From: Microbacterium sp. zg-Y625
Lineage (GTDB): Bacteria; Actinomycetota; Actinomycetes; Actinomycetales; Microbacteriaceae
Assembly (NCBI RefSeq): GCF_030246925.1
Contig: NZ_CP126740.1
Coordinates: 1,798,001-1,862,000, forward strand
Direction: 5' to 3'
DNA length: 64,000 nt
The translations under genes were made by a program, and so were the position numbers. The number at the start of each line of letters is the position of its first letter. Positions within the stretch are counted from its first letter, which is position 1. Positions 6,422 to 26,977 of the stretch are shown piece by piece. The notes below the pieces were generated by a model. The model was not told where the DNA came from, ran no database searches, and saw only the letters and a list, made by a program, of their open reading frames with translations.

Positions 6422-6746
6422 GTCCTCGCGCAGCGGGTGCGACGTCGCGACGCCCGTGCCACGCCGGGTGGGATGAGGGCAGCGCAGCGCGCCGCTCGCA
6501 TCCGACCGTCGGGATTCTGCTGACAGTCCCCCGATCTCTCATGTGAGTACCCGCTCACACAGCAGCCGGAGGTGGACCTCGGCGGCACCGCGACGAAAGG
6601 GGGGCGTGTGAACGGGAACTCACATGGCGAATCCGGACACGCCGAAAACCCCGGGAGTTCGGCCCGCAGCGTGACGGCTTACCGCACGGCGCGGGGCGAA
6701 CGCAAACCTTTCCGGATGGCCACGCGTACCCGCAAGACTCGCGGGC
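6422..6746. other. Intergenic region holding repeat cluster A
   Basis: No gene was supported in these 325 bases. Apparent reading frames through it are short and encode the translated repeat (VNGNSH / VSGYSH). The main content is the inverted pair of dyad repeats at 6541-6625. A weak -10-like AAGACT lies 7 nt before the start at 6747. No terminator hairpin other than the repeats was seen. Confidence 0.6.
6513..6643. repeat. Repeat cluster A: inverted pair of REP-like dyads
   Basis: Two copies of a 20-bp dyad in opposite orientation: ATGTGAGTACCCGCTCACAC at 6541-6560 and GTGTGAACGGGAACTCACAT at 6606-6625, 45 bp apart. The core TGTGAG-N6-CTCACA is itself a hairpin. The outer flanks match other copies: GATTCTG..GACAGTCCCCCGAT before the first copy resembles the flank at 25784, and the flank after the second (GGCGAATCCGGACAC) resembles the inverted flanks of clusters B and C. 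Hence each unit is about 45 bp and the pair is REPIN-like. Confidence 0.75.
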
Positions 6747-7712
6747 ATGGTCTTTCTCGGCTTCCATGCATCCCACGAACAGATTCCCCCCGGTCAGCTC
6801 TTGCGCGACGTGGTGGCGGCGGAGGCCGCCGGATTCGACGGCGCGATGTGCTCGGACCACCTGGCGCCCTGGGGCGTGCGCCAGGGCGAATCGGGCTTCG
6901 CGCCCAGCTGGCTCGGGGCAGCCCTTGCCCGCACGGACTTCTCGATCGGCTTCGTCAACGCCCCAGGACAGCGCTATCACCCGGTGATCGCCGCGCAGGC
7001 GTACGCGACGCTCGAGGAGATGTTCCCGGGGCGCTTCTGGGCCGCGCTCGGCAGCGGCGAGGCGATGAACGAGCACGTCACCGGCGACCCCTGGCCACCC
7101 AAGCCCGAGCGCAACGCCCGGCTCGCCGAGAGCGTCTCGATCATCCGCCGCCTGCTGGCGGGCGAAGAGGTCGACCACGACGGCCTGGTGCGTGCACACC
7201 ACGCCCGCCTGTGGTCGCTGCCGGATGCGCCGCCGCCGCTGTTCGCCACTGCCATCAGCCCCGAAACCGCCGCGTGGGCGGCGTCCTGGGCGGAGGGCCT
7301 GGCCACCGCACTCCAGCCGCCGGAGGCGCTGCAGAAGGTGCTCTCGGCCTACGAGGCTGCGGGCGGAACAGGCCCCCGGTTGCTGCAGGTGCACCTCAGC
7401 TGGGCCCCGACGGATGCCGAAGCTCTCGCGATCGCGCGGGATCAGTGGCGACACGCCCTGCTCACCGCGCCCGCGATCTGGGACCTCGAGCAGCCCGAGG
7501 AATTCGACGACGCTGCCGGCGAACCCACCGACCAGCAGATGCGCGACGCGCTGTTCGTCTCGAGCGATCTCGATGAACTCGCAGACCGCATCGCCGATCA
7601 CGCCCGGCTCGGCTTCGACCGCGTGTACCTGCACCATGTCGGCCAGGACCAGGCGCCGTTCCTCGACGTGGCGCGCGACCATCTGCTGCCTCGGCTGAAG
7701 GAGATGCTGTGA
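6747..7712 (+). CDS. LLM-class flavin-dependent oxidoreductase (TIGR03885-like)
   Basis: Luciferase-like monooxygenase fold, 321 aa. Family features include GFHASHEQIPPGQLL at the N terminus, the SDHLAPW loop, GFVNAPGQRYHPVIAAQA, and LGSGEAMNEHVTGDPWP in the substrate/flavin region. The sequence resembles the TIGR03885 group, described as descendants of F420 enzymes that probably use FMN. Cofactor and substrate are not provable from sequence. The stop overlaps the GTG of the GH13 gene (GTGA), so the two are co-translated and may act in one pathway or stress response. Confidence 0.8.
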   Translation: MVFLGFHASHEQIPPGQLLRDVVAAEAAGFDGAMCSDHLAPWGVRQGESGFAPSWLGAALARTDFSIGFVNAPGQRYHPVIAAQAYATLEEMFPGRFWAALGSGEAMNEHVTGDPWPPKPERNARLAESVSIIRRLLAGEEVDHDGLVRAHHARLWSLPDAPPPLFATAISPETAAWAASWAEGLATALQPPEALQKVLSAYEAAGGTGPRLLQVHLSWAPTDAEALAIARDQWRHALLTAPAIWDLEQPEEFDDAAGEPTDQQMRDALFVSSDLDELADRIADHARLGFDRVYLHHVGQDQAPFLDVARDHLLPRLKEML

Positions 7713-9373
7713 GGATCACCGACACGAGCGACCTGTGGTGGAAGTCCGCCGTCATCTACTGCCTCGACGTCGAGACGTTCCTGGACTCGAACGGCGACGG
7801 CGTGGGCGATCTGCAGGGACTGGCATCCCGCATCGACTACCTCGCCCAGCTCGGCGTCACGTGCCTGTGGCTCATGCCCTTCTACCCGACGCCCGATCGC
7901 GACGACGGCTACGACGTGACGGACTTCTACGGCGTCGACCCGCGCCTCGGCACCCACGGCGATCTCGTCGAGGTGATCCGCACGGCCCGCGATCGGGGCA
8001 TGCGCGTCATCGTGGACCTCGTCGTGAACCACACGTCCGACCGGCATCCGTGGTTCCGATCCGCCAAGCGCAGTCCGTCGTCGCCGTACCGCGACTTCTA
8101 CGTGTGGCGTTCGGACCCGCCGCCCCCGGGCCAGAAGAACCCCGTCTTCCCCGGTGAGGCAGACGGCATCTGGACGCGGGAGGACGCGACCGGTGAGTGG
8201 TACATGCACAGCTTCTACCCGCATCAGCCCGACCTGAACATCGCCAATCCCGCGGTGCGCGACGAGATCGCGAAGACCGTCGGATTCTGGCTGCAGTTGG
8301 GGATCTCGGGATTCCGCGTGGATGCCGTGCCATTCCTGCTCGAGGTGCCCGAGGGCGCCGAGATGGCCGACCCCCACGACATGCTGCGCGACATCCGCCG
8401 CTTCCTGCAGCGGCGCTCGAGCGAAGCGGTGCTGCTGGGCGAGGTGAACCTCCCCTACGAGGAGCAGACGGCGTACTTCGGCACCGACAACGGCCAAGAA
8501 CTGACGATGCAGTTCGATTTCGTGGGGATGCAGGAGTTCTACCTGTCGCTCGCCCGTCAGGATCCGACGCCCCTCGCGGCCGCGCTCGCGTCGCGCCCCA
8601 GCCTCCCCGTCGAGGCGCAGTGGGCGAACTTCCTGCGCAACCACGACGAGCTCACGCTCGACCAGCTCACCGACGAAGAGCGGCAGGAGGTGTTCGAGGC
8701 CTTCGCGCCCGACGAAAGCCAGCGGGTGTACGGGCGGGGCATCACCCGTCGGCTGCCGCCGATGCTCGAAGGCGACCCCCGCCGCATCCGGATGGCCTAC
8801 AGTCTGCTGTTCACCCTGCCCGGCACGCCGGTGATCTTCTACGGCGAGGAGATCGGAATGGGCGAGAACGCCGACCTCGACAAGCGGCATGCGGTGCGCA
8901 CCCCGATGCAGTGGTCGGCCGAGCGTCATGGCGGATTCTCGAGCGCCCCGCCGTCCCGCCTTCCTGCTCTGCCACCCGGCGACGGCTACGCCCCCGTGCA
9001 CGTCAACGTCGCCGACCAGCTCGAAGACCGCGACTCGCTGCTGCACTTCTTCCGCGACCTGACCTCCCGCTACCGCATCTCACCCGAACTCGGGTGGGGT
9101 GAGCTGGAGATCATCGCGCACGACGCGCCGGGCGTGCTCGTGCACTCCCTGCGCGCCGACGTCGGCCGCACCGTCGCGGTGCACAACTTCACCGACGTGC
9201 CCGTCCTGCTGGGCTTCGCTCTCCCGGACGAGCCGGAAGGGACGACGCTGGTCGACATCCTCGACTCGGAGCGCCTTCCGCTCGACGACCGCGGCGGTAT
9301 CGAGTTCACCCTCCCCGCGTACGGCTATCGCTGGCTGCGCGTGTCCCGCCCAGGAGACGGCCGGGTGACCTGA
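7709..9373 (+). CDS. GH13 alpha-amylase family enzyme, trehalose-synthase-like
   Basis: Glycoside hydrolase family 13 protein of 554 aa. All four conserved regions are present: DLVVNHTSD (about 101-109), GFRVDAVP with the nucleophile Asp near 205, LLGEVNLP with the acid/base Glu near 245, and RNHDELT with His-Asp near 312-313. The close match to TreS-style stretches (MPFYPTPDRDDGYDVTDFYGVD, HQPDLNIANPAVRDEI) suggests maltose-trehalose interconversion or a related glucosyl transfer. There is no fused maltokinase domain; a separate maltokinase lies at 37127. An alternative is a plain alpha-glucosidase. Confidence 0.82.
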   Translation: MRITDTSDLWWKSAVIYCLDVETFLDSNGDGVGDLQGLASRIDYLAQLGVTCLWLMPFYPTPDRDDGYDVTDFYGVDPRLGTHGDLVEVIRTARDRGMRVIVDLVVNHTSDRHPWFRSAKRSPSSPYRDFYVWRSDPPPPGQKNPVFPGEADGIWTREDATGEWYMHSFYPHQPDLNIANPAVRDEIAKTVGFWLQLGISGFRVDAVPFLLEVPEGAEMADPHDMLRDIRRFLQRRSSEAVLLGEVNLPYEEQTAYFGTDNGQELTMQFDFVGMQEFYLSLARQDPTPLAAALASRPSLPVEAQWANFLRNHDELTLDQLTDEERQEVFEAFAPDESQRVYGRGITRRLPPMLEGDPRRIRMAYSLLFTLPGTPVIFYGEEIGMGENADLDKRHAVRTPMQWSAERHGGFSSAPPSRLPALPPGDGYAPVHVNVADQLEDRDSLLHFFRDLTSRYRISPELGWGELEIIAHDAPGVLVHSLRADVGRTVAVHNFTDVPVLLGFALPDEPEGTTLVDILDSERLPLDDRGGIEFTLPAYGYRWLRVSRPGDGRVT

Positions 9374-9511
9374 GGCGAGACGGCGTCGCCTCCTTTCGGG
9401 AGTCCCTCGGCGGACGACCTGCGGCCCCTCGCCCTCAAGCGGGCCGTATAGTTGGACGCGGTTTAGAAACAATCACCGGTCAGCCCGGGTCACGGAAGGC
9501 GAAACGACGCG

Positions 9512-10291
9512 ATGGTGGAGGGCGACAGCGCGATCGTCGAGTTCCGCAACACGACCAAGCGCTATGGCGCGAAAGCGGATCACCTTCCTGCGCTCGACGA
9601 CGTGAGCCTCAGCATCCGGCGCGAGGAGATCTTCGGGGTCATCGGTGAGAGCGGCGCCGGCAAGACCACCTTGCTTGAGCTCATCAACGGACTGACCACG
9701 CCGACCTCGGGCTCGGTCACGGTGCAGGGCATCGACGTGGGCGGCCTGCGACGCACCGGACTCCGCGGACTGCGACAGGGCATCGGTGTCGTGTTCCAAG
9801 GCATCCACCTGCTGAGCAACCGCACCGTTCGGGAGAATGTCGCTCTCCCGCAGCAGCTGGCGCGAGCGCAGGGCGGCACTGCTGTCAGCCGCGCCGAGGA
9901 GCGTCAGGCGGTCGACGAGATCCTCGCCTTCGTCGGGCTCTCGCATCGCGCCGATCACTACCCCGCGCAGCTGAGCGGTGGGGAGCAGCAACGCGTCGGC
10001 CTCGCCCGGGCCCTCGTCTCGCGGCCCGCGCTCCTGCTGGCCGACGAGCCGACGTCGTCTCTGGACGCCTCTACGACGTCGGACATCCTCCGGGTGCTGT
10101 CCGATGCCCGGGACAAGCTCGGCACCACCGTGGTCGTGATCACGCACGACCTGGACGTCGTCAAGGCGATCTGCGATCGCGCGGCGCTGTTGGAGCGTGG
10201 ACGGCTTCGGGAACTGTTCCCGGTGACCAAGAGCGACTACCGCACGCTGCCGAGCTATCACGAGCAGGTCAAGCGGGAGCTCATGCCGTGA
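9512..10291 (+). CDS. metN: Methionine ABC importer ATPase, short form
   Basis: ATPase of a MetNIQ-type importer, 259 aa. Walker A GESGAGKTT is near residue 45, the signature is QLSGGEQQRVGLARALV, and Walker B is LLLADEPTSSLD. It ends soon after the ABC domain and lacks the roughly 90-residue C-terminal NIL/ACT regulatory domain that senses methionine in E. coli MetN, so trans-inhibition by cytosolic methionine is not expected. The ATG at 9512 follows a distant GGAAGG. Neighbours metI and metQ overlap or follow closely. Substrate could be another D/L-amino acid of the same family. Confidence 0.85.
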   Translation: MVEGDSAIVEFRNTTKRYGAKADHLPALDDVSLSIRREEIFGVIGESGAGKTTLLELINGLTTPTSGSVTVQGIDVGGLRRTGLRGLRQGIGVVFQGIHLLSNRTVRENVALPQQLARAQGGTAVSRAEERQAVDEILAFVGLSHRADHYPAQLSGGEQQRVGLARALVSRPALLLADEPTSSLDASTTSDILRVLSDARDKLGTTVVVITHDLDVVKAICDRAALLERGRLRELFPVTKSDYRTLPSYHEQVKRELMP

Positions 10292-10959
10292 ACCAGATCA
10301 CCGAACTCCTCTCCGAGTACGGCGACGACATCCTCGAGGCGCTCGGCGAGACCGGGTACATGCTGGTCGTCTCCCTCCTCGCGGCGGTGCTGATCGGATT
10401 ACCGCTCGGGATGGTCGTGTTCCTCACGCAGCGCGGCGGCATCGCGGAGAACCGCGCGATCTGGTCCGTGGCGAACATGTACATCAACATCGTCCGCTCC
10501 TTCCCGTTCCTGCTGCTGGTGGTGTTCCTCATCCCGTTCACGCGCGCCGTGATCGGAACCAGCTTCGGCACGCAGGCGAGCACCCTCCCCCTGTGCTTCG
10601 TGGCGGTCGCGATCTATGCGCGCCTGGTCGAGCAGATCCTGCGCGAGATCCCGCCCGGCATCTCGCGCGTCGCCCAGGCGATGGGGGCCACCGTGCCGCG
10701 GGCGGTGTTCCTCGTGCTGCTGCCGGAGGCGCGCCCCGGGCTCGTGTACGCGTTGACGTCCGCCGCGATCAGCCTGCTGTCGTACTCGACCGTGCTCGGC
10801 GTCGTGGGAGGCGGCGGCATCGGCGACTTCGCGATGCGATACGGCTACCAGGAGTACAACGACGCCCTCATGTACATCACCATCGCCATCATCGTCGTGT
10901 GCGTCCTGACGATCCAGGCGATCGGAAACCGCACCTCGGTCCGACTGGATCACCGCTGA
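10288..10959 (+). CDS. metI: Methionine ABC importer permease
   Basis: Inner-membrane permease of the D-/L-methionine family, 223 aa, five or six helices. The EAA-type coupling loop is seen as EIPPGISRVAQAMGATVPRAVFLVLLPEARPGL. The C-terminal part STVLGVVGGGGIGDFAMRYGYQ is characteristic of MetI. The GTG start overlaps the metN stop (GTGA), giving translational coupling. Confidence 0.9.
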   Translation: MNQITELLSEYGDDILEALGETGYMLVVSLLAAVLIGLPLGMVVFLTQRGGIAENRAIWSVANMYINIVRSFPFLLLVVFLIPFTRAVIGTSFGTQASTLPLCFVAVAIYARLVEQILREIPPGISRVAQAMGATVPRAVFLVLLPEARPGLVYALTSAAISLLSYSTVLGVVGGGGIGDFAMRYGYQEYNDALMYITIAIIVVCVLTIQAIGNRTSVRLDHR

Positions 10960-11003
10960 TACCGCGAGCACCGACCCACGCCACCCCAGGAAAGAAGGAA
11001 ACC

Positions 11004-11831
11004 ATGAGAGCCTCTCGGTTCAGCGTCGTCGCCATAGCAGTGGGAGCGGTCGCGGTGCTCGCCGGCTGCGCCGCCGGTGCCGGCGCCGATGCGGGCGACG
11101 ATGGGGGCGAAGTCACCGCCCCGGTGACGCTCCAGGTCGCCGCCGTGACATCCCCGATGACCGACGTCGTCGAGGCGGCCGCCGAAGCCATCGAAGACGG
11201 GTACGAGATCGAACTCGTCGAGGTCGCCGACTACATCACGGCCAACACGATCCTCAACGACGGTGACGTCTACGCCAACTTCTCCCAGCACGAGCCGTAC
11301 ATGCAGTCCTTCAACGAGGGCAACAACGGCTCGCTCGTCGCGGTGCAGCCGGTGTACAACTTCGTGATCGCGTTCTACTCGAAGTCGCTGACCGACATCG
11401 CCGACCTCCCCGCCGGCGCCACGATTGCGATCCCCGACGATCCGTCCAATACCGGGCGCGCCCTGAAGCTGCTCGCGGCCGAGGGCATCGTGACGCTCGA
11501 TCCCGCCGTCGACCCCTATGACGCGACCGTGGACGACATCGTCGAGAACCCGAAGCAGGTCGAGTTCCTGCAGGTGCCGATCAGTTCACTCAACGCCGCG
11601 TACGAAGAAGCGGATCTCGTGTTCCAGTGGCCGTCGCACATCGCGGCGCTCGGATTGAACCCGCAGGATGACGGCCTTCTCACCGAGCTCGACGAGACCT
11701 TCGCGCTGAACCTCGTGGTCGGGGGCGACGATGCGTCCTCGGAGGCGACGGCCGCGCTGACCAGGGCCTTCACGAGCGATGCCGTGCGCGAGGTGATCGA
11801 ATCGAACGAGACCATCGAGGTCGCGTTCTGA
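11004..11831 (+). CDS. metQ: MetQ-family substrate-binding lipoprotein
   Basis: Extracellular solute-binding lipoprotein of 275 aa. The signal peptide MRASRFSVVAIAVGAVAVLAG ends in lipobox LAGC, so the mature protein is lipid anchored. NLPA-family features include VTSPMTDVVEAAAEA, the aromatic-containing YANFSQHEPYMQSFNEG and AIPDDPSNTGRALKLL. The ATG at 11004 has AAAGAAGGA 4-5 nt upstream; a longer in-frame reading back to 10593 overlaps metI and lacks a signal peptide. Third gene of the metNIQ operon. Confidence 0.92.
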   Translation: MRASRFSVVAIAVGAVAVLAGCAAGAGADAGDDGGEVTAPVTLQVAAVTSPMTDVVEAAAEAIEDGYEIELVEVADYITANTILNDGDVYANFSQHEPYMQSFNEGNNGSLVAVQPVYNFVIAFYSKSLTDIADLPAGATIAIPDDPSNTGRALKLLAAEGIVTLDPAVDPYDATVDDIVENPKQVEFLQVPISSLNAAYEEADLVFQWPSHIAALGLNPQDDGLLTELDETFALNLVVGGDDASSEATAALTRAFTSDAVREVIESNETIEVAF

Positions 11832-12112
11832 CGATGCCGGGCGCCCCGTCGCGGGGTCATCTCGGAAGTGTCATTGGGGCCCGGCCCTCGTCTCCGTAGA
11901 CACTTCCTCTTTCGGCCGTGTGAGTTCCCGCTCACACAGCCGTGTCCGGAGGGAGCTCGGACGCCCGCTCTCCCGTGCATGTGAGTTCCCGCTCACACGG
12001 GCCATGGCGTGCGCCGTGGGCCCAGCACCCAATGGTGTGTGAGCGGGAACTCACATGCGAAATCGGGAGACACTGACAGATCGATGCATCGGCCCGCCCC
12101 GGCGAGCCGCGT
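11832..12112. other. Convergent intergenic region with repeat cluster B
   Basis: The region separates metQ (plus) from the tad operon (minus). A short hairpin CCCCG-TCG-CGGGG at 11844-11856 may terminate metQ. The rest is dominated by three dyad repeats. No gene is supported; apparent frames translate the repeat as CVSGNSH. Confidence 0.55.
11899..12085. repeat. Repeat cluster B: three REP-like dyads
   Basis: Copies lie at 11918-11937 (GTGTGAGTTCCCGCTCACAC), 11979-11998 (ATGTGAGTTCCCGCTCACAC) and, inverted, 12037-12056 (GTGTGAGCGGGAACTCACAT). The outer flank of the third copy (GCGAAATCGGGAGACACTGA) is the reverse complement of flanks seen in clusters A and C, and the flank before the first (TAGACACTTCCTCTTTCGGC) is a diverged version. 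Between two converging transcription units the hairpins could also act as bidirectional terminators. Confidence 0.75.
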
Positions 12113-12547
12113 TCAGCGCAGCGCGTTGCGGCTGGTCGCCGTCGCCTCCAGCGGCACGCCGTCGGGAACGAACAGTGTCATGATCGGCGGATGCCACACC
12201 GTGGCGACCGTCACCCGCGCCGAGACGCCGTCGGGAGTGGCCGCCGACACGAGCGTCGCAGTGCCGACCGCTTCGACGATGGAGGCGGCTTGCTGGCGGA
12301 CGCCCCCGTCGGTGAGCTCGGCGGACGGTTCTCCCGCGACGACGGAGAGGGTGAACCCGTCCGCTCCGGCGAGCGCGGCGGCATCCGCGAGCCCATCCAG
12401 CCGCTTGTGGGCGATGTGCAGGCTGGTGGCATCCACGCACACGAGGATCAGCACCAGCGCGAGCGCGGCGTACCCCAGTGACAGCAGCAGAATGCTGCCG
12501 TCGTCATCCCCGGCGAGCTGCTGCCGCGCCGGCCGGACCCGGTTCAC
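12113..12547 (-). CDS. TadG/TadE-like protein, last gene of the tad operon
   Basis: A 144-aa pseudopilin-like protein with an N-terminal basic/acidic stretch, one transmembrane helix (SILLLSLGYAALALVLILVC) and the motif HKRLDGLADAAALAGADGF, typical of the Rv3658c-style secretion-neighbourhood TadE-like family (helix followed by DAAALAGA). The rest is a periplasmic beta-rich domain. The GTG start overlaps the preceding stop (GTGA). Probably an envelope component of the tad pilus. Confidence 0.75.
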   Translation of the reverse strand: MNRVRPARQQLAGDDDGSILLLSLGYAALALVLILVCVDATSLHIAHKRLDGLADAAALAGADGFTLSVVAGEPSAELTDGGVRQQAASIVEAVGTATLVSAATPDGVSARVTVATVWHPPIMTLFVPDGVPLEATATSRNALR

Positions 12548-13011
12548 CCGCCACCCCAGAATCGGGAAACCTTCTGCACGGATGCTGCTTCGACAGGCAC
12601 GCTGGCGATGCTCTCAAGCCCGAGGACCGATGGCACGAGCGGCAGCGTCACGCGCGTCGCGACCGTCACCCGGAGGGTCGCGCCGGAGGCGGGGCACGCA
12701 GCGCCGGCCGGCGTGCAACTGATCGCGACCTCGACGGCATCCGGCGCCAGACCGTACTCGTCGACCACCGAGGCGAGGATGGCATCGGTGCGGGCGGCGG
12801 CGGTCGCGGCATCCGGAGCCGTCGCCACCGCGCGCGCGATGTGACGCGCACCGGACTCGACCCCCAGTGTCTGCCCCTGCACGGCGCCCAGCGCGACGAT
12901 CAGGTAGACGAGCGGCACGAGCAGGATCACACCGACGAGGATGAACTCCAGCGCGGCGGCGCCCTCGTCGTCTCCGGCCGCGCCGTCATCCGAGGCTCTC
13001 CACCGGGGCAT
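12544..13011 (-). CDS. TadE/TadG-like minor pilin
   Basis: A 155-aa protein with an acidic N terminus ending EGAAALEFILVGVILLVPLVYL, the TadE-like pseudopilin pattern (A-x-x-EF followed by a long hydrophobic helix). The helix is followed by GVESGARHIARAVATAPD and an exported domain with two Cys in VAISCTPAGAACPAS that could form a disulfide. It overlaps the previous gene by 26 bp and the next by 4 bp. Confidence 0.75.
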   Translation of the reverse strand: MPRWRASDDGAAGDDEGAAALEFILVGVILLVPLVYLIVALGAVQGQTLGVESGARHIARAVATAPDAATAAARTDAILASVVDEYGLAPDAVEVAISCTPAGAACPASGATLRVTVATRVTLPLVPSVLGLESIASVPVEAASVQKVSRFWGGG

Positions 13012-13572: not shown

Positions 13573-13598
13573 CACCGCTCCCTTCCGACCGCACGCGG

Positions 13599-17745: not shown

Positions 17746-17788
17746 CCCGCCTCTGGCGGGGCCGAGGGGCGCCGACCATAGTGGAGCC

Positions 17789-20407
17789 ATGCCGTCCCCG
17801 GACACGCGCGCCCAGCTGATCGACACGATCAGCGAAGCGGTGCACGCGCGCACGTGCGTCGTGCTCGTGGGCCTGCCGGGGTCGGGGCGCCGCGACGCGA
17901 TGGCCCGGTTGCGGGTGCGCTTCGCGGATGAGGACTGGACGATCGCCTCGGTCACCGGCTTCCACGCCGACGGGCCTCCGCTCGAGTCCCTGGCCCTCTC
18001 GGGTTTCGCCCCGCCTGCGCCCGCCGCGACCGCCGCCCTCGCCGCAGCGACACAGGCCCTGGCCTCCCTGAGCGCGGAGCGCCCCGCGCTGCTCCTGATC
18101 GAGCAGGCCGATCAGCTCGATGAGGCGTCGACGTCAGCAGTCGCCGCCGCGATCGGCATCGGGGACCTCACCGCCGTCGCATCCATACGCCCGCCCTTCC
18201 CCGGGTACACACGCATCGAGGCCGCGCTGTCGCGGCGCGAGACCACCGCACTGTGGATGCCGGCCCTCCCCTTCGAGGACATCCATCGACTCATCTCGGA
18301 CGCCCTGGGTGGCAGCGTGAACACCGACGCCGCCGGCCGCATCTATGCGCTTTCGGGCGGACTGCCGGGCATCGCCCGCTCCATCGCCGTCGAAGCCCGC
18401 CGGGCCGGCAGGCTGGTGCGGCGCGGGGCGCAGTGGTCGGCAGAACGGGACCTGTGGAGCCCTGCTCTGGCGGTGACCCTCTCGCGGTTCGCCGACGGCC
18501 TGACCGAGGCCGAGCGTGACGGATGCTGGATCCTCGCCGAACTCGGCCCCAGCAGCCCCGAGACGGTGCGACAGGCGCTGCCGTGGTCGGTCGTGACCGC
18601 CCTCGATGATCGCGGGCTGGTCCGGTTCGTCGATGCCGATGCCGGCTCCCTCGTGGCCCTGTTCCCCCCGGTGCTGGAAGACCACCTGCGTCATCGTGCC
18701 CGCAGTGCGCGCGGCAGGCAGGCCGCCGAGCTCGTCGCCACGGGCCGCGCCGCCGCGCCGGAGACGCCGACGCGCCGCCCGGAAAGCGAACGACCTGCGC
18801 TCCACGCGCCGCTGGGCTGGTCGTCGTCGCCGGAGGCCGCCGCGATCCTCGGACGCGTGCTGCGCGAGGACGCCGCCCGTCGCGTCGCGATCACGCGCGA
18901 GGACTGGCAGGAGAAGCCGACGGCAGTGACGGCGGTCGCCCACCTCCAGGCTCTGGTAGACGACGCCGCCGGACCGCAGCAGGTCGACGCCGTGCTCAGT
19001 GCCGTCGACAACACGGCGCTGCCGCCCGATCGCGACACCGTGCGGCTGCGCATCTGGGAGATCATCTATCGCGCCCTCGTCCGCCACGATCCGCACGGCG
19101 CTATGGCGCTGCTCGACAGGACCCGACGCGAGATCCCGGTGGCCGTGACAGTGCTCAACGCCATAGAGCAGCACATTCGTCTGGTCGTCACGGGCATCGG
19201 CCCCGCCGAGCTGCCGCCCTATCCCACCGCGGCCGAGATCGACGAGGTGCACAGGCTCTCCCGCCCGAGCCCCTCGCTCAGCCTGCCACGCTCGCATGCC
19301 GTCGACGTGGTGCGGCTGGTCCGCGGCGAGGTGCTGCTCAGCGGCGCTCGAACCTCCGACGCCCTCGCCGACTTCGCCGATCTCTCGCCGACGGATCCGC
19401 TGCGGCGTGACCCTTACTCCATCCCTTCCCTCGCGCAACTCTGCGACGGCGACATCGAGGGCGCCGTGCGCCGCTCGCAGCGCGAACTCGACCTGGCGCG
19501 CGGCACGCTGGATCGCACGCGCATCGAGCCGCACGGCTACGTCGTGGCCCTGGGGCTGCTCCTGCAGGGCCGACTGGGCACGCTGCGCGACCACCTGACG
19601 AGCATGTTCGCGGTCAACGCCCCGGCCGTCCTGGTGCCCGACTCGCGCGCAGGCCTGCTGTCCATCAGCGCGGCCCTCTCGCTCTGGGAGGCCAACCTTC
19701 CGAGTGCGCGCGCCATGGTCGCGCAGGTCGAAGACCTTGAGCTCAGCGGCGGCCCCTTCCCCCTCATAGGCGCCGACGTGTCCGCCGCCGCGCTGGCCGT
19801 CGCACGGGGTGTGCCCCCCGCGGAGGCGACGCGCGCGGCGTGGGAACGCACCGGACACCTCATCGACGAGGGGCACCTGCTGGCAGCGGTGTTCGACGGC
19901 GTGCGCCTGATCGACCTGCACGTCGACCTCGAGGCGACCGCGCGGCTCACGCAGGTGGCGTACTCCGCTCAGGGCACGCTGCTGCCCGCGCTGGGCGCAT
20001 TCCTCGAAGGCGCGGTCGCGCAGTCGCCGGACCAACTCCTCGCCGCGGCGGGCACCCTGCGTGAGCAGGACCTCGGGCTGTACGGCACCCGCGCGCACGC
20101 GATGGCGATCCGCCGGCTCCGCGACGCCGGCCGCGCCGACGATGCCGCACGCGAATCGCAGCGCCTGCGTCGCGCAGTGCAGGCTGCCGGCGACGACCTC
20201 TCGCTGCTGCTGTCGGCGCGCTTCGACCCCGCCACCGTGCTGACCCCGCGCGAGCGGGAGGTAGCGCGCCTCATCGCCGCCGGCGGCACCAACCGAGACG
20301 TCGCCGAGAAGCTCGTCGTGAGCGAGCGCACCATCGACAACCACCTGTACCGCATCTTCCGCAAGCTCGGTGTGAACACCCGCGAGGAGCTCGCCGGGCT
20401 GGTCTGA
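17789..20407 (+). CDS. Very large LuxR-family regulator with AAA-like N-terminal domain
   Basis: An 872-aa LAL/MalT-style regulator. The N terminus has a P-loop-like VVLVGLPGSGRRDAM and a Walker B-like LLLIEQADQLDE; the Walker A Lys is replaced by Arg, so ATP binding may be altered. A long helical middle region resembles TPR/ATPase linker segments. The C terminus is a GerE/LuxR helix-turn-helix: LTPREREVARLIAAGGTNRD, VSERTIDNHLYRIFRKLGV. The ATG at 17789 has CATAGT 6 nt before it; a longer in-frame reading to 17417 overlaps the nuclease gene. Targets are unknown. Confidence 0.82.
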   Translation: MPSPDTRAQLIDTISEAVHARTCVVLVGLPGSGRRDAMARLRVRFADEDWTIASVTGFHADGPPLESLALSGFAPPAPAATAALAAATQALASLSAERPALLLIEQADQLDEASTSAVAAAIGIGDLTAVASIRPPFPGYTRIEAALSRRETTALWMPALPFEDIHRLISDALGGSVNTDAAGRIYALSGGLPGIARSIAVEARRAGRLVRRGAQWSAERDLWSPALAVTLSRFADGLTEAERDGCWILAELGPSSPETVRQALPWSVVTALDDRGLVRFVDADAGSLVALFPPVLEDHLRHRARSARGRQAAELVATGRAAAPETPTRRPESERPALHAPLGWSSSPEAAAILGRVLREDAARRVAITREDWQEKPTAVTAVAHLQALVDDAAGPQQVDAVLSAVDNTALPPDRDTVRLRIWEIIYRALVRHDPHGAMALLDRTRREIPVAVTVLNAIEQHIRLVVTGIGPAELPPYPTAAEIDEVHRLSRPSPSLSLPRSHAVDVVRLVRGEVLLSGARTSDALADFADLSPTDPLRRDPYSIPSLAQLCDGDIEGAVRRSQRELDLARGTLDRTRIEPHGYVVALGLLLQGRLGTLRDHLTSMFAVNAPAVLVPDSRAGLLSISAALSLWEANLPSARAMVAQVEDLELSGGPFPLIGADVSAAALAVARGVPPAEATRAAWERTGHLIDEGHLLAAVFDGVRLIDLHVDLEATARLTQVAYSAQGTLLPALGAFLEGAVAQSPDQLLAAAGTLREQDLGLYGTRAHAMAIRRLRDAGRADDAARESQRLRRAVQAAGDDLSLLLSARFDPATVLTPREREVARLIAAGGTNRDVAEKLVVSERTIDNHLYRIFRKLGVNTREELAGLV

Positions 20408-20670
20408 CACGGCGACCGAGCCTGCCCCGCCTCGCCGCTCGGCGAGCTCACGGGCGGTACTCACGCTCGGGCGTGCCGGTGCTCAGCCCGAGCCACCCCG
20501 GTGCTCCTTCCTGCCTGCCGGCGTACCGATCGCGTGAACCCGCCGCCTGTGCGACCGCCCCCGCCGCCTGAAATGGATGACCGGCAGGCGCGACCTGGTG
20601 CCGCCGCGTGACCGTCCGCTTCCGACGGCCCACCGAGCGCCGGATACCCGGCGGAAGGAGTGATGCCGTC

Positions 20671-21423
20671 ATGGACGCGATCGTGCGTTCCGCGCCCGCG
20701 CCCGCGCCCGCGCGGCGCGTGGTGCGCGCCTGCGAGCTGGCCGTCATCATCCCTGCCCACAACGAAGCGGACGCCATCGCCGGCACGTTGGACGCACTCG
20801 CCTGGCAGACTGCAGTACCGCGCCGCTTCATCGTCGTGGCGGACAACTGCACCGACGCGACCGGGCCCATCGCCGCCGCCCACGGCGCCGACGTCATGGT
20901 CACCGAGGGCAATAGAGACCGCAAGGCCGGAGCACTCAACCAGGCGCTGGCATCCCTGGGGGGCGCCGCGCCCCGGTTCGTGCTGGTCCTCGATGCCGAC
21001 ACCCGGCTCGCTCCGGAGTTCATCGACGCGGCCCTGAGGACGCTCACCGCGGACGACGCGCTCGGAGCCGTCAGCGGGCTGGTCGTCAGCGAGCAGCCGG
21101 GGCGGATGCTGCAGCAGTTCCAGGCCGACGATCACGTGCGCTACGGCACCCACATCCGGGCGACCGGACGGGTGAGCGTCGTCACCGGCACGGCGTCGAT
21201 GTTCCGCACCGCCGCGCTCCGCGACGTCGCCGGCCAGCGCGGGGCGACGCTTCCCGGGCAGCGGGGCGACGTCTACGACCGCGCGGCGATCATCGAGGAC
21301 TCCGAACTCACCCTGGCACTGAAGACGTGCGGCTGGGGCCTGGTCGCCCCCGAGCAGTGCGTGTGGACCACCGAGCTCACGCCCACGTGGGGAGGTCTGC
21401 ACAGCCAGCGCGTCCGCTGGTAG
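20671..21423 (+). pseudogene. Truncated GT2 glycosyltransferase (BcsA/hyaluronan-synthase style)
   Basis: Reading from the ATG at 20671 (GGAAGGAG 10 nt upstream) gives 250 aa of a GT2 catalytic domain: CELAVIIPAHNEADAIAGTL, the DxD-like VLVLDADTRL, a Glu-Asp pair in AIIEDSELTLALKTCGWGL and the QxxRW motif as SQRVRW. It then stops at TAG. The codons after the stop continue K-G-M-R, as expected for a family member reading RWYKGMR, so the stop replaces a likely Tyr. Homology is lost soon after, and the membrane helices that should follow are absent. Either a remnant or, less likely, a soluble minimal transferase. Confidence 0.65.
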
Positions 21424-21547
21424 AAGGGCATGCGCGCGCCTCGCGGTTTTCTCCGGCGATCGCGGGTGCGCGCACGGCGTTCGGCACGGCAGGATCGGTA
21501 GTCGACCCGAGGAGTCCTCTCCCGGCCGGCGACCACGAAGGGACGAC

Positions 21548-22396
21548 ATGCTGACCATCGAGCAGGCACTCGCCGTACAGCGCGACGCCGCCGTGCACAA
21601 GGCGCACGGACTCCGTGCGCCGGCGCGGTTCGTGGTCTCCGGCATGCTCGCCGGAGCATATCTCGGCATCGGCGTCATCCTCATGGTGAGCACCGCCGGC
21701 CCCCTCACCGCCGCCGGCTCCGGCGCCGGCAAGCTCGTCGGCGGGCTCGTGTTCGCCGCCGCCCTGACCCTGGTGGTCTTCGCCGGCGGCGAGCTCGTGA
21801 CCTCCAGCATGATGACCCTCACCCAGGGCGTCGCAATGCGCGCGGTCCGGCCCGCGCGGGCCGCCGCAGCTTTGGGCGTCACCTTCGTCGCCAACCTGGG
21901 CGGCGCCGCCCTCTTCGCCGCCGCGGTCGCGGGTGCCGGGCTGCTGCACTCCAGCTCGGGCGCCGAGAGAATGCTGACCGACATGCTGACCGCGAAGTCC
22001 GCGGAGCTGCCGCACGAGCTGTTCCTTCGCGGCATCCTCTGCAACGTGCTGGTGTGTCTGGCGATCTGGATGTGCGCGCGCCTCACCTCCGACGGGCCGA
22101 AGATCGCCGTGATCGCGTTCGCGATCCTCGCCTTCGTGGCCTCGGGATACGAGCACGTGGTCGCCAACATGACGACTTACGCACTGGGACTCATGACCGG
22201 CGTCGACGCCGCGACATGGGCCGGCTTCGGCGGCAACATGCTCTGGGTGGGCGCCGGCAACCTGATCGGCGGCGCCGTGGTCGTCGGCCTCGGGTACTGG
22301 TTCGTCGGGGGCTCGCCACGTGGCGCTGATGCCTCCGTCGTCGAGGACGAGGGTGCGTCCGTCATGGCCGAGAGCGGGTCCCGGTCCCCCCACTAG
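21548..22396 (+). CDS. Formate/nitrite transporter family channel
   Basis: Pentameric FNT channel of 282 aa with six helices. Family marks are the N-terminal LRAPARFVVSGMLAGAYLGI, GGELVTSSMMTL, ILCNVLVCLAIWMC, SGYEHVVANMTTYALG with the gating His, and GGNMLWVGAGNLIGGAVVVG. The wording is closer to NirC-type channels, but substrate (formate, nitrite, hydrosulfide) cannot be assigned. A GAAGGGA site precedes the ATG. The acidic C-terminal tail is variable. Confidence 0.87.
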   Translation: MLTIEQALAVQRDAAVHKAHGLRAPARFVVSGMLAGAYLGIGVILMVSTAGPLTAAGSGAGKLVGGLVFAAALTLVVFAGGELVTSSMMTLTQGVAMRAVRPARAAAALGVTFVANLGGAALFAAAVAGAGLLHSSSGAERMLTDMLTAKSAELPHELFLRGILCNVLVCLAIWMCARLTSDGPKIAVIAFAILAFVASGYEHVVANMTTYALGLMTGVDAATWAGFGGNMLWVGAGNLIGGAVVVGLGYWFVGGSPRGADASVVEDEGASVMAESGSRSPH

Positions 22397-22409
22397 ACTG
22401 GGGCGACCC

Positions 22410-22491
22410 GCGGGAGTGGTGGAATTGGCAGACACGCAGGATTTAGGTTCCTGTGCCTTCGGGCGTGTGGGTTCAAGTCCCACCTTCCGCA
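22410..22491 (+). tRNA. tRNA-Leu (anticodon TAG)
   Basis: An 82-nt cloverleaf with acceptor GCGGGAG / CTTCCGC (one G-U), D-arm region TGGTGGAATTGGCAGACAC, anticodon stem CAGGA / TCCTG around loop TTTAGGT, a long variable arm as in class II tRNAs and T-arm GTGGGTTCAAGTCCCAC. The anticodon is TAG. The 3' CCA is not encoded (ACG follows). Confidence 0.93.
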
Positions 22492-22550
22492 CGGGTGGAT
22501 GCTGCGGCATCCACCGCTGACACCGCCGATATCCGACCGACGGGACCCCT

Positions 22551-23354
22551 GTGCTCGAGACCGCACTGCACGCACCGACCGCGCTGATCCCGTGGCTGGA
22601 CCCCGCCACGATCATCACGAACTCGCAGCCGTGGGCGCTGCTGGTGGTGTGCTTCATCGTCTTCGCAGAGACCGGGTTGCTCGTCGGCTTCCTGCTGCCC
22701 GGCGACACGCTGCTCATCATGGCGGGCCTGCTGTCCCACTCGACGGAGATCGCGCCCGACGGCGTCTTCGGCATCAGCCCGTGGTGGGTGGCCCTGCTCA
22801 TCGGGCTCTCCGCCTTCGTCGGCGGTGAGGCCGGGTACTTCATCGGCCACAAGGGCGGGCCGGCGGTGTTCGAGCGCAAGGAATCGGGCGTCTTCAGCCG
22901 CCGCAACGTCGAGCGCACCAACGCGTTCTTCGAGCGCTACGGCGGACTGACGATCATCCTCGCCCGCTTCGTTCCCATCGTGCGCACCTTCGCCCCGGTC
23001 GCTGCGGGCGTCGGGCACATGCCCTGGCGCCGCTATTCGCTGTACAACCTCATCGGCGCGATCCTGTGGGGCTTCGGACTGACGATGATCGGCTACGGCA
23101 TCGGGTTCATCCCCTTCGTCGGCGACTTCGTGTCGGAGTACATCGACGTGATCCTGCTCGTCGCGGTGGCGGGCACCATGGTCTTCATCATCTGGCACTA
23201 CTTCGCCGAGCGCCGCAAGGTCGCGCAGGAGAAGGCCGCCGGCGACGACGGCGTGACGGATGCCGCCGAGGCCGAGGAGCTGGTCCTGGACCAGGACACG
23301 TTCCAGAACGACATCGACGACGACCCCGAAGGTCCCTCGGCGGCGCGCAGCTAA
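22551..23354 (+). CDS. DedA family membrane protein
   Basis: Polytopic protein of 267 aa. DedA/SNARE-associated family features: FAETGLLVGFLLPGDTLLIM, FVGGEAGYFIGHKGG, RTNAFFERYGGLTIILARFV, PIVRTFAPVAAGVGHMPWRR and YNLIGAILWGFGLTMIGYGI. Members act in membrane lipid homeostasis, with some implicated in undecaprenyl-phosphate recycling. The acidic C-terminal tail is unusual in length. It overlaps the ku gene end by 4 bp, convergently. Confidence 0.9.
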   Translation: MLETALHAPTALIPWLDPATIITNSQPWALLVVCFIVFAETGLLVGFLLPGDTLLIMAGLLSHSTEIAPDGVFGISPWWVALLIGLSAFVGGEAGYFIGHKGGPAVFERKESGVFSRRNVERTNAFFERYGGLTIILARFVPIVRTFAPVAAGVGHMPWRRYSLYNLIGAILWGFGLTMIGYGIGFIPFVGDFVSEYIDVILLVAVAGTMVFIIWHYFAERRKVAQEKAAGDDGVTDAAEAEELVLDQDTFQNDIDDDPEGPSAARS

Positions 23355-24331
23355 CTGGCCTTCTTCTTCGCCGGTGCCTTCTTCGCGGGCGCTTTCTTCG
23401 CGGGTGCGCTCTGTGAGGCCGCCGCCTTGGCGGGCGCCTTCTTCGCGGTTGCCTTCTTGGCGGGCGCCTTCTTGGCAGCCGGCGCGTCGTCGGACTTCTC
23501 AGGCGCCGCGGCGTCGGCGTCGGCGCTCCCCGAGCCGCCCCGTGCCGCCCGCGAGCGCTCCACGCTCGCGCGCAGGGCCGCCATCAGGTCGATGACCTCG
23601 CCGCCGGTGTCGGACTCCTCCACCTCGCCGAACGTCTCCGAGGTGTCGAGAGCGTCACCCTTCTCGAGCTTCGCCTCGATGAGGGTGCGCAGCTCCTGCT
23701 GGTACTCGTCGGAGAAGTCCTCCGGCTCGAAGTCACTGGCGAAGCTCTCGACGAGGCTGGCCGACAGCTCCAGCTCCTTCGCCGAGATGCGCACGGACTC
23801 ATCCAGCGCGGGGAAGCTAGCTTCGCGTACTTCATCGGCCCACAGCAGCGTCTGCAGCACGAGCACGTCGCCTCGCACCCGCAGGGCCGCCAGGCGGGTC
23901 TTCTGCCGCAGCGCGAAGCGCACGATCGCGGTGCGGTCGGTCTGCTCGAGGGTCTTCCGCAGCAGCACGTAGGCCTTGGGCGAGGCGGAGTCGGGTTCGA
24001 GGTAGTACGCCTTGTCGAGGGTGAGCAGGTCGATCTGGTCGCTCGGGACGAACTCCACCACGTCGATCTCGCGGCTGCGCTCGGAGGGCAGCGATGCGAT
24101 GTCATCGGCGGTGAGCACGACCGTCTGCTCGCCGTCGTCGTAGGCCTTGTCGATGTCGGCATAGGCCACGACCTCGCCGCAGATCTCGCACTTGCGCTGG
24201 TACCGGATACGCCCGCCGTCGGCGTTGTGCACCTGATGCAGCGGCACGTCGTGGTCCTCGGTGGCGGAATAGACCTTCACCGGCACGTTCACGAGCCCGA
24301 AAGTCAGCGCGCCTTTCCAGATAGCCCTCAT
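23351..24331 (-). CDS. ku: Non-homologous end joining protein Ku
   Basis: Homodimeric DNA-end-binding protein of bacterial NHEJ, 326 aa, recruiting LigD. The core is typical: MRAIWKGALTFGLVNVPVKV, RIRYQRKCEICGEVVAYADI, RFALRQKTRLAALRVRGDVLVLQTL. The C terminus is a Lys/Ala/Pro-rich tail with repeated KKAPAKK units (from about residue 270), as in Ku proteins with extended basic tails that help threading on DNA. The ATG at 24331 fits the conserved start; an in-frame ATG 8 codons upstream (24355), 8 nt after TATAGG, is an alternative. Divergent from ligD. Confidence 0.93.
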   Translation of the reverse strand: MRAIWKGALTFGLVNVPVKVYSATEDHDVPLHQVHNADGGRIRYQRKCEICGEVVAYADIDKAYDDGEQTVVLTADDIASLPSERSREIDVVEFVPSDQIDLLTLDKAYYLEPDSASPKAYVLLRKTLEQTDRTAIVRFALRQKTRLAALRVRGDVLVLQTLLWADEVREASFPALDESVRISAKELELSASLVESFASDFEPEDFSDEYQQELRTLIEAKLEKGDALDTSETFGEVEESDTGGEVIDLMAALRASVERSRAARGGSGSADADAAAPEKSDDAPAAKKAPAKKATAKKAPAKAAASQSAPAKKAPAKKAPAKKKAS

Positions 24332-24391
24332 GCTCACAGTGAACACCCGTCGCATCCGTCACGCCTATAGGTTGCGCACTAACCTGCTGAC

Positions 24392-26977
24392 ATGGCAGGT
24401 GAGGGGCAGCTGATCCGCATCGACGGTCGCCGGCTGCGGGTGACGAACCTCGACAAGGTGCTGTACCCGGCCACGGGCACCACCAAGGGCGAGGTCATCG
24501 ACTACGTCACGCGCATCGCGCCCCTGATGATCCCGCACGTGGCGGGCCGCCCCGTCACCCGCAAGCGCTGGCCCGAAGGCGTCGATGCCCCGTCGTTCTT
24601 CGCGAAGGACCTCGAGCGCGGCGCCCCGGACTGGGTCAGGCGGATGCCGATCGACCATTCCACGGGCGCCAAGGACTACCCGTTGGTCGGCGATCGCCCG
24701 ACGCTGGTCTACCTCGCGCAGGTGGCGAGCCTCGAGCTGCACGTACCGCAGTGGCGGTTCGGGCCGGACGGCGAGCGCGGGAATCCCGACCGTCTGGTGC
24801 TGGATCTCGACCCCGGCCCTGGCGCTGGTCTGGCGGAGTGCGCCGAGGTGGCGCGCACGCTGCGGGAGATCCTCACCGGTATGGGACTGGAGCCGTATCC
24901 GGTCACGAGCGGCAGCAAAGGCATCCACCTGTACGCAGCGCTGCCGGGCACGCAGTCCAGCGAGCAGATCGCCTCGGTGGCGCGGGAACTGGCACGAGCC
25001 GTCGAGGCGGATCAGCCCGATCTCGTGGTCAGCCAGATGGCGAAGGCGCAACGCCCCGGCAAGGTGCTCATCGACTGGAGCCAGAACAACGGCGCGAAGA
25101 CCACGATCGCCCCGTATTCGTTGCGCGGGCGTGAGCAGCCGATGGTGGCGGCGCCGCGCACGTGGGAGGAGCTCGATGACCCCGACCTGCGGCATCTGCT
25201 CTTCGGCGAGGTGCTGGCGCGGGCCTCGACGATTGGCGACCCGCTTGCGCCGCTGGGATTCCACGCCGACGGGCGCGCGTCGTCCGACGGCCCCCTGGCC
25301 GCTTACATCGCCAAGCGCACGGCTGGTGTGACGCCCGAGCCGGTGCCGGGCAATGCGCTGGGCGGGCGCGCGGCATCCGGACTCCCCCGGTTCGTCATCC
25401 AGGAGCACCACGCCTCGCGCCTGCACTGGGACCTGCGGCTGGAGCGCGACGGCGTGCTGGTCAGCTGGGCCGTGCCCAAGGGCGTGCCCGAGACTCCCTC
25501 GCGCAACCACCTCGCCGTCATGACGGAGGACCACCCCCTCGAATACGCGACCTTCGAGGGCGAGATCCCGCGCGGGGAGTATGGCGCCGGCACGATGACC
25601 ATCTGGGATGCGGGTGTCTACGACCTGGAGAAATGGCGCGACGACGAGGTCATCTTCACCGCGCACGGCCGCCCCGGAGGTCGGCTGGGAGATGTGCGCC
25701 TCGCTCTCATCCGCACCGACGGCGCCGGCGAGAAGTCGACGTGGCTCCTGCACCGCATGAAAGGGGATGCCGCTCCGCCGCGCGATTCTGCGGACGGTCC
25801 CTCGATTTCGCATGTGAGTTCCGGTTCACACAGCCGCCTCGGTGCCCCGCGCCGGGCCCCCTCCGATACAGCCTCGACCTCGGCCTCGTCGCAGGCCGCG
25901 GACTCGGCCCCGGACCCGGCCCCGGCCCCGGCCCCGGACGCCCGTGTGAGCGGGAACTCACATGCGGAAACGAGGAACACTCCGCAGCGGCCGGGAAGCG
26001 ACCCGTCGGACGCGCGCCCCATGCTGGCCACGTCCGCGACGCCGGCTCGCGCGCACGACGCCGCCCGCACCTGGGGAGACCGCGCCTGGGCAGAGCTGAA
26101 GTGGGACGGCATCCGGGCACTCGGCATCTGGGACGGCTCCGAGCTGCAGCTGCGCGGCCGCAACGGCACCGACATCACCGCCCGCTACCCCGAGCTCACG
26201 GCCGAGGCCGCGGCGGTCTTCGGCGACACCCCGATCACCGTCGACGGCGAGATCGTCGCCCTCGACGACACCGGGCGGCCGAGCTTCAGCCTGCTGCAGA
26301 ACCGCATGCACCTCACCGGCTCCCGCGACATCGCGCGCGAAGCACAGCGCACGCCGACCGCCTGGTACCTGTTCGACGTGATCGCCCTCGACGGCGCCGA
26401 CATCGCGCACCTGCCGCTCGCCGAGCGCCGCCGGCTGCTCGAGGAGCTGCCCACCGCGCCACCGCGCATCGACATCCCCCCGGTGTTCGACGATCTCGAC
26501 ACAGCACTCACCACGGCGCGCCGGCATCGCCTCGAGGGGGTCGTCCTGAAGAACCCGCAATCCATCTACCGCCGCGGCCAGCGCACCGAGCAGTGGCTCA
26601 AGGTGAAGCTCACGAGCACGCAGGAGGTCGTCATCGGCGCCATCCGACCCGGCAAGGGCGGGCGGCACGGATCGATCGGGTCGCTGCTCCTCGGCATCCC
26701 CGACGGAGAGGGGCTGCGATACGTGGGCCGCGTCGGGTCGGGATTCAGTGACCGCACGCTCGCGCGCCTCACGGAGACGCTCACACCGCTGCGCACCGAC
26801 GAGAACCCGTTCATCGGCATCCCCCGCGCCGATGCCTCCGACGCCCTCTGGGTGCGTCCCGACGTCGTCGGAGAGGTCGAGTTCGCCGAGTTCACCCCCG
26901 GCGGCACGCTGCGGCACGCCCGCTGGCGGGGCCTGCGGCCCGACAAGTCACCGTCCGAGGTCACGCGCGAGGGGTGA
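24392..26977 (+). CDS. ligD: ATP-dependent DNA ligase LigD (polymerase-phosphoesterase-ligase)
   Basis: Multidomain NHEJ enzyme, 861 aa, order POL-PE-LIG. The primase-like polymerase domain spans about residues 10-290 (VLDLDPGPGAGLAECAEVAR, TSGSKGIHLYAAL). The 3'-phosphoesterase domain is around 325-460 (FVIQEHHASRLHWDLRLERD). The ligase domain is about 545-861, with nucleophile Lys570 in AELKWDGIRAL, DGEIVALD, EGVVLKNPQSIY and EQWLKVK. The linker at about 457-540 contains two inverted copies of the genome repeat read in frame. TAACCT lies 6 nt before the ATG. Works with the divergently encoded Ku. Confidence 0.95.
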   Translation: MAGEGQLIRIDGRRLRVTNLDKVLYPATGTTKGEVIDYVTRIAPLMIPHVAGRPVTRKRWPEGVDAPSFFAKDLERGAPDWVRRMPIDHSTGAKDYPLVGDRPTLVYLAQVASLELHVPQWRFGPDGERGNPDRLVLDLDPGPGAGLAECAEVARTLREILTGMGLEPYPVTSGSKGIHLYAALPGTQSSEQIASVARELARAVEADQPDLVVSQMAKAQRPGKVLIDWSQNNGAKTTIAPYSLRGREQPMVAAPRTWEELDDPDLRHLLFGEVLARASTIGDPLAPLGFHADGRASSDGPLAAYIAKRTAGVTPEPVPGNALGGRAASGLPRFVIQEHHASRLHWDLRLERDGVLVSWAVPKGVPETPSRNHLAVMTEDHPLEYATFEGEIPRGEYGAGTMTIWDAGVYDLEKWRDDEVIFTAHGRPGGRLGDVRLALIRTDGAGEKSTWLLHRMKGDAAPPRDSADGPSISHVSSGSHSRLGAPRRAPSDTASTSASSQAADSAPDPAPAPAPDARVSGNSHAETRNTPQRPGSDPSDARPMLATSATPARAHDAARTWGDRAWAELKWDGIRALGIWDGSELQLRGRNGTDITARYPELTAEAAAVFGDTPITVDGEIVALDDTGRPSFSLLQNRMHLTGSRDIAREAQRTPTAWYLFDVIALDGADIAHLPLAERRRLLEELPTAPPRIDIPPVFDDLDTALTTARRHRLEGVVLKNPQSIYRRGQRTEQWLKVKLTSTQEVVIGAIRPGKGGRHGSIGSLLLGIPDGEGLRYVGRVGSGFSDRTLARLTETLTPLRTDENPFIGIPRADASDALWVRPDVVGEVEFAEFTPGGTLRHARWRGLRPDKSPSEVTREG
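25784..25990. repeat. Repeat cluster C: REP-like inverted pair inside ligD
   Basis: Copies at 25812-25831 (ATGTGAGTTCCGGTTCACAC) and, inverted, 25944-25963 (GTGTGAGCGGGAACTCACAT). The outer flank of the first (GATTCTGCGGACGGTCCCTC) closely matches that of cluster A (GATTCTGCTGACAGTCCCCC). The pair lies in frame and encodes SHVSSGSHS and RVSGNSHAETRN in the linker between phosphoesterase and ligase domains. The reading frame is preserved throughout. Confidence 0.78.

Follow-up and report, generated by a model that had tools for sequence, protein, structure and literature searches.

A 64,000-nucleotide stretch of the genome of Microbacterium sp. zg-Y625 (GCF_030246925.1, contig NZ_CP126740.1, positions 1,798,001 to 1,862,000; hereafter the window) carries a family of 20-bp palindromic repeats arranged in arrays with inverted ends. 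Across the genus, genomes with these repeats mostly also carry a gene for an ArsR-type winged helix-turn-helix (wHTH) protein with a basic C-terminal tail, and an array lies upstream of that gene. We consider it fairly probable that repeats and protein form a two-part system, in which the protein would bind the arrays, autoregulate its own gene and occupy dispersed sites that are not promoters. This view builds on the observed anatomy, distribution and constraint of the arrays and on their co-occurrence and adjacency with arsR.

Anatomy of the repeat arrays

The window holds seven copies of the repeat in three clusters (D, E and F), at the positions given by an initial annotation of the sequence and in the arrangement it described, namely forward-reverse pairs at 6541/6606 and 25812/25944 and a forward-forward-reverse triplet at 11918/11979/12037. 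With up to two mismatches, the core TGTGAG-N6-CTCACA matched eight times, compared with 1.74 ± 1.35 times in shuffled sequence (eight or more in 0 of 100 shuffles); the eighth match, at 46009, is isolated, has two mismatches and was left out of the family count. The 3.26-Mb, single-contig genome that contains the window (G000; G and L numbers denote genomes and fetched loci) holds 16 copies in six clusters at up to three mismatches, against none for a reversed control pattern. Clusters and window features are listed below, with mismatches counted against the consensus unit and bit scores from R1, a model of the unit plus arm built from 31 copies.

G000 55184-55336: cluster A
G000 1804541-1804625: cluster D, within the window
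G000 1809918-1810056: cluster E, within the window
G000 1823812-1823963: cluster F, within the window
G000 2052951-2053150: cluster B
G000 2447267-2447463: cluster C
Window 6514..6540, + strand: left outer arm of cluster D; R1 57.5 bits (L020:2515-2565)
Window 6541..6560, + strand: palindromic unit, cluster D, first copy; 1 mismatch
Window 6606..6625, - strand: palindromic unit, cluster D, last copy; 1 mismatch
Window 6626..6652, - strand: right outer arm of cluster D; R1 48.9 bits (L020:2603-2653)
Window 11891..11917, + strand: left outer arm of cluster E; R1 52.9 bits (L021:2492-2542)
Window 11918..11937, + strand: palindromic unit, cluster E, first copy; 1 mismatch
Window 11979..11998, + strand: palindromic unit, cluster E, middle copy with weaker arm; 0 mismatches; R1 41.1 bits
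Window 12037..12056, - strand: palindromic unit, cluster E, last copy; 0 mismatches
Window 12057..12083, - strand: right outer arm of cluster E; R1 57.9 bits (L021:2634-2684)
Window 25785..25811, + strand: left outer arm of cluster F; R1 66.8 bits (L022:2486-2536)
Window 25812..25831, + strand: palindromic unit, cluster F, first copy; 2 mismatches
Window 25944..25963, - strand: palindromic unit, cluster F, last copy; 0 mismatches
Window 25964..25990, - strand: right outer arm of cluster F; R1 63.9 bits (L022:2641-2691)
Window 24392..26977, + strand: ligD open reading frame (ORF), 861 aa, a single open frame with cluster F in frame in the phosphoesterase-ligase linker; Pfam LigD_Prim-Pol, LigD_N and DNA ligase domains

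Every G000 cluster begins with a forward and ends with a reverse copy, and so do 71 of the 76 multi-copy clusters among 82 clusters in 83 fetched loci (L105 and L274 hold no cluster under the cluster rule; L063, L064 and L065 lie outside that count). Inverted pairing exceeds chance. The five departures include sites palindromic enough to be labelled in both directions. The proposal that copies keep a conserved flank on their outer side alone holds for the outermost ones: 6-8 bp outside the terminal unit the A+T fraction is 0.81, 0.85 and 0.80, against 0.30, 0.28 and 0.35 on the inner side (71 clusters), and the middle triplet copy at 11979 has a weaker arm (41 bits, compared with 53 and 58 for the outer two). 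The same A/T-rich tract flanks 34 clusters of a second unit form, type 2 (0.82, 0.72, 0.74), which were found without using the arm, and is likewise confined to the outer side in 11 clusters of G000 and G031 found by the core alone.

The interiors are free to vary. Tandem copies are commonly spaced by 26-55 bp, with a strong mode at 26 bp; we make no claim of helical phasing, the best period being 9.1 despite weak clustering at 10.5 bp (R 0.31). Inverted pairs form strong, long hairpins in the six examples folded (z -4.0 to -9.8). The innermost pair of the type-1 stem, however, forms in just 125 of 173 units, the other stem pairs having been largely selected by the search, as units came from a pattern. 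What seems to be kept is therefore the dyad GTGA...TCAC and not a perfect hairpin, and a conserved RNA-type stem was rejected on this ground; six loci gave no match to a known RNA family up to E 1. The consensus, TTnCGC-ATGTGAG...CTCACAC-AGC, has neither a GTAG nor a CGTC tag adjoining the stem. In G012 (L060/L134) and G320 (L116), an entire element of several units occurs as a head-to-tail duplication, with units of about 138 bp and 109 bp.

A tailed ArsR gene beside the arrays

Gene calls around the clusters showed that an array is immediately followed by an ArsR-like gene at two unrelated loci, metG/lacI and hrpA/AKR (aldo-keto reductase); the G000 gene lies outside the window, at about 2052.3-2052.8 kb. 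With a threshold of E 0.02, R1 matched 38 genomes among the 366 of the genus, nine of them at least three times (G000, G031, G364, G320, G012, G112, G153, G025 and G193), and the other eight proteins of these nine are 56-92% identical to that of G000 and share its C-terminal tail. The two proteins scanned exceeded the cut-offs of HTH_20, HTH_5 and NF033788, and NCBIfam and PDB matches also point to an ArsR/SmtB wHTH. The predicted structure combines a confident wHTH core with a low-confidence tail, which is probably disordered. This tail is basic, typically [K/R]GPGRxxxRGxRGxQ, and we take it to resemble an AT-hook, for which no tool gave a match.

A profile of the nine proteins matched 24 of the 366 genomes at E 1e-25 or better, with the tail whole or partial in 23; the G353 protein has none, and in G012 it reads KGAGR. 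An array stands upstream of the tailed gene in 23 of 23 loci, whether the gene sits at hrpA/AKR (16 genomes) or at metG/lacI (7 genomes), loci recognised by at least one of their two marker genes. Beside the gene, the nine type-1 genomes have 3-10 GTGA-N8-TCAC dyads and the fourteen other loci none; read by eye, eleven of the fourteen have arrays of a diverged TGAAC-type unit, TTGAACTTCCNGYTCACAC, and G130, G122 and G098 have variant units upstream of tailed arsR. These diverged and variant arrays also run from forward to reverse copies wherever both ends are in view. On the ArsR tree, whose backbone is poorly resolved, the unit type changed at least twice. No promoter or terminator consensus was found in the arsR-linked region L018:2250-2800. 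At L177 (G045) and L179 (G130), tailed arsR and the aldo-keto reductase gene that follows it share one unbroken reading frame, giving open frames of 507 and 508 aa.

An exact search with the type-2 unit, TGAACTTCNNGYTCACR, matched 46 of the 366 genomes, at least twice in 17 (2 control matches in total), with the highest counts in G011 (45) and G052 (39); many single matches are one common sequence with the look of a conserved coding site, and singles were not counted. Taking at least three R1 or at least two type-2 matches as repeat-positive gave 26 genomes. The tailed gene is present in 21 of these 26 and in 2 of the 340 others (Fisher p about 2e-27, uncorrected for kinship), the two being G122 and G130, both with variant arrays upstream of it.

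In an exact scan of 84,980 species, from which the window genome's own or near records may be excluded, ATGTGAGTTCCSGYTCACRC occurred only in Microbacterium sp. Root180, M. pullorum and M. dauci. The protein profile matched six of 398 genomes of the family at E 1e-30, two in Microbacterium and four in other genera; the latter matches are weaker and without the full tail, and their fetched loci held no type-2 unit at up to three mismatches. A broader protein search, in which 8000 candidates were scored, found 218 matches with E values of 1e-20 or better; among the 120 listed, every named genus is Microbacterium and 92 have the strict tail motif. Searches for the tailed protein in phages and for the arsR-linked array on plasmids found no match. 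A loose 17-base pattern matched five viral contigs; as neither the family's outer bases nor its flanks occurred in any of them, these matches were taken as chance and a viral origin was rejected.

Placement and conservation of sites

Ten clusters adjoin arsR, and the other 72 comprise 31 convergent, 30 codirectional, 1 divergent and 10 intragenic sites, by our own gene caller and with orthologous sites counted separately. Merging orthologues by hand reduced the convergent sites to 25, and one site (L126) depends on the gene-overlap setting, the counts becoming 32 convergent and 29 codirectional if only shorter overlaps are allowed. The sole divergent site is the former arsR site of G094. With one of 62 dispersed intergenic arrays divergent, these are short palindromes mostly behind genes, as in repetitive extragenic palindromic (REP) sequences in the broad sense. 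The ten intragenic arrays all lie in ligD, where each is read in the only frame that escapes the unit's stop codon, and every one of the ten ORFs is open; cluster F is thus not extragenic but lies between the 3'-phosphoesterase and ligase domains. REPs inside DNA-repair genes, including a DNA ligase, are described in other families (PMC3733652). Neighbouring genes formed no coherent set by eye.

Identical fixed positions in all relatives had been named as a sign of a regulatory rather than mobile origin; sites proved to be shared with relatives, but not with all of them. Orthologues of all six G000 clusters occur in G031 and of four in G364, with B or F in several more genomes. Interiors between the terminal units differ among orthologues and often expand into tandem arrays. 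Compared with G000, terminal units show 95% identity in G031 (12 ends) and 94% in G364 (8 ends), figures inflated by locating units by their own sequence. Gapped identity with G031 is 72% for DNA beyond the arms and 70% for DNA inside the units; with G364 it is 67% and 60% (shuffled, 61%). The 27-bp arms at orthologous sites agree at 67% with G031 and 48% with G364, and arms at different loci within G000 are 50% alike, against 27% when shuffled. Because distant orthologous arms are no more alike than paralogous ones, the arm appears to be held to a motif, and at the level of sequence the arms behave as expected of a constrained motif.

Repeat sites differ between clades. Locus C is occupied in G000, G031 and G364 and empty in G025 (32 bp compared with 391 bp), where no target-site duplication and no clean ends were legible; the empty locus (L286) lies between trhO and an SRPBCC gene. 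The hisS locus was rejected as orthologous in G320 and G112: the arrays (L111:2768-3050 in G320, L127:3046-3274 in G112) stand on different sides of hisS, upstream in one species and downstream in the other, apparently independently.

Candidate explanations and known systems

In the two-part account, the repeats would be the DNA half of a mainly vertically inherited system whose other half is the single tailed ArsR gene. The protein would bind the GTGA-N8-TCAC dyad as a dimer, and its AT-hook-like tail may give the array its outward polarity by reading the A/T tract that flanks the terminal units on the outside. The array upstream of arsR would serve autoregulation, and the dispersed arrays may be non-promoter docking sites at gene ends, with a role in chromosome structure or as a transcription boundary. 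Arrays would grow and shrink inside by tandem duplication, with the terminal units kept by selection. A further claim, which we hold only tentatively, is that an interspersed repeat is both maintained and dispersed through the chromosome under a non-catalytic ArsR-type protein, that contact of the tail with the A/T tract marks the ends, and that selection keeps the protein-DNA unit and not a transposase, the ligD frame included.

Several points weigh against this account. Five repeat carriers do not have the tailed gene, and they are the main result against strict dependence: G094 (28 type-2 copies, many in near-perfect pairs), G110 (7 copies), G091 (3; 68% complete), G231 (2; 86% complete) and G152 (2, both isolated). 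Their best ArsR matches are untailed paralogues, with none in G231. Of the 23 rows of a lax ArsR search, two correspond to the tailed arsR of G130 and of G122, and none of the ten read among the other 21 is tailed; among the eleven left unread are three weak rows from G110 and one row from G091. The association test is inflated by kinship, its thresholds were picked after seeing the data, and arsR alone was screened, so that a better partner gene could have escaped. The genus-wide protein search scored at most nine candidates per genome, the G259 tail lacks GPGR, the first 20 positions of the model are missing from the G222 gene, and the inflated unit identities count on the same side.

A single unit remains and arsR is gone in G013 at metG/lacI and in G094 at hrpA/AKR; both sites look like losses of the gene. 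As the dispersed pairs of G094 are still near-perfect without it, either the dependence is loose or the loss is recent. Seven of the nine type-2 sites fetched from G094 (L244-L252) are compact pairs of about 50-90 bp and two are single units, with no tandem arrays; G155, which has the tailed gene, also has compact pairs at its three dispersed sites. At L188 (G222), type-2 repeats run up to the truncated arsR start, giving the impression of an array that has expanded into the gene.

The initial annotation read the repeats as REPINs, the paired mobile form of REPs that is spread by a RAYT transposase. The anatomy agrees with that reading (palindromes, inverted pairs, conserved outer side, hairpins and 3' intergenic placement), but the low copy number, the missing Y1 transposase and the shared loci do not. 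Few copies genome-wide had been named as a sign against the REPIN reading; the 16 copies of G000 are few, and the genus maximum is 45 exact copies, in G011. The Y1 domain PF01797 (Y1_Tnp) was absent from G000 and exceeded its cut-off in 0 of 12 repeat-carrying genomes, in a search whose control matched known genomes and which left out G094, G110, G011 and others. As the co-occurring gene encodes an ArsR-type wHTH, a RAYT mechanism is unsupported for these repeats. An enzyme that escaped notice could still spread a REPIN-like element by acting on its hairpin in single-stranded form, with ArsR as passenger or as regulator of that enzyme. The folding of inverted pairs into long hairpins, the differences in sites between clades, the empty locus C of G025 and the many near-perfect compact pairs of G094, which has no tailed ArsR, all speak for such elements. 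We judge them unlikely, though a serious candidate: Y1_Tnp stayed below cut-off in all twelve genomes (other transposase families being unsearched), no target-site duplication was legible at the empty site, many sites are common to species, and the arms are held to a motif. We regard the repeats as a variant of the REPIN-like kind with a different partner, with a real chance that they are a kind of their own.

That the arrays are ordinary operators, through which ArsR regulates the genes adjoining each of them, is improbable. The partner is of ArsR type, its own gene has an array immediately upstream, the 30 codirectional sites are each upstream of a gene, and the TGAA..TTCA dyad presumably resembles ArsR/SmtB operators. 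Ordinary operators fit badly, however, because of the convergent and intragenic sites (31 and 10 of the 72 dispersed arrays, with only 1 divergent); the neighbouring genes are also incoherent by eye, and conserved arms, inverted ends and free interiors are unlike operators. Freely differing interiors with closely spaced tandem copies would suit functionless debris of an old miniature inverted-repeat transposable element or minisatellite. Such dead remnants are very improbable, since terminal units at about 95% (G031) and 94% (G364) stand against neighbouring DNA at 70-72% and 60-67%, even though sequence-based finding accounts for some of the unit figure, and the forward-left, reverse-right order persists in nearly all multi-copy clusters.

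The two-part account has relatives in several described systems. Autoregulators of the ArsR/SmtB type, such as SdpR and SmtB, have the same wHTH core and, as operators, dyads upstream of their own gene; the Microbacterium protein differs in its basic C-terminal tail and its many dispersed non-promoter arrays. MatP/matS and ParB/parS similarly pair one DNA-binding protein with a limited number of dispersed palindromic sites, but the protein fold differs, and the Microbacterium arrays have inverted ends and tandem expansion. Pneumococcal BOX elements have fixed ends and variable internal copy numbers. Bacterial interspersed mosaic elements, named in PMC3116915, are alike in these two respects, by description and not by sequence; unlike both, the Microbacterium arrays are tied to one DNA-binding protein gene.

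REPIN/RAYT systems share inverted palindrome pairs that form hairpins, extragenic dispersal, and a single-copy, vertically inherited partner gene adjoining its own repeats (PMC3116915, PMC8049555). They differ in copy number, with tens to hundreds compared with 2-45 in Microbacterium (PMC3116915, PMC8049555), and in the partner, which in Microbacterium is an ArsR-type wHTH with no known catalytic domain. Typical REP families have hundreds of copies per genome. High copy number is nevertheless a soft criterion, since families that stay below 100 units also exist among REPs (PMC3733652). GTAG- and CGTC-tagged REPs, including the Rickettsia RPEs, are likewise short palindromes mostly downstream of genes and form dimers, and CGTC REPs also have no dedicated transposase (PMC3733652). 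The Microbacterium stem is set apart by lacking either tag; in the available part of that source, the list of phyla omits Actinobacteria and no ArsR partner is mentioned (PMC3733652). Untagged REP-like sequences of M. tuberculosis and others have no conserved terminal tag and offer one actinobacterial case; the likeness is one of description, not sequence, and the same part of the source names no partner protein for them (PMC3733652).

The open-access literature, as far as its texts were available and with most subscription papers outside its scope, yielded no other protein-linked interspersed palindrome family in Actinobacteria. We know of none either. Why populations of REP-like sequences persist in bacterial genomes is an open question, and the known case has a transposase as partner. 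If the two-part account is true, a plain DNA-binding partner would separate two roles, the spreading of the repeats and their usefulness when bound, and a single protein, a single 20-bp site and deletion strains would suffice to test the latter directly.

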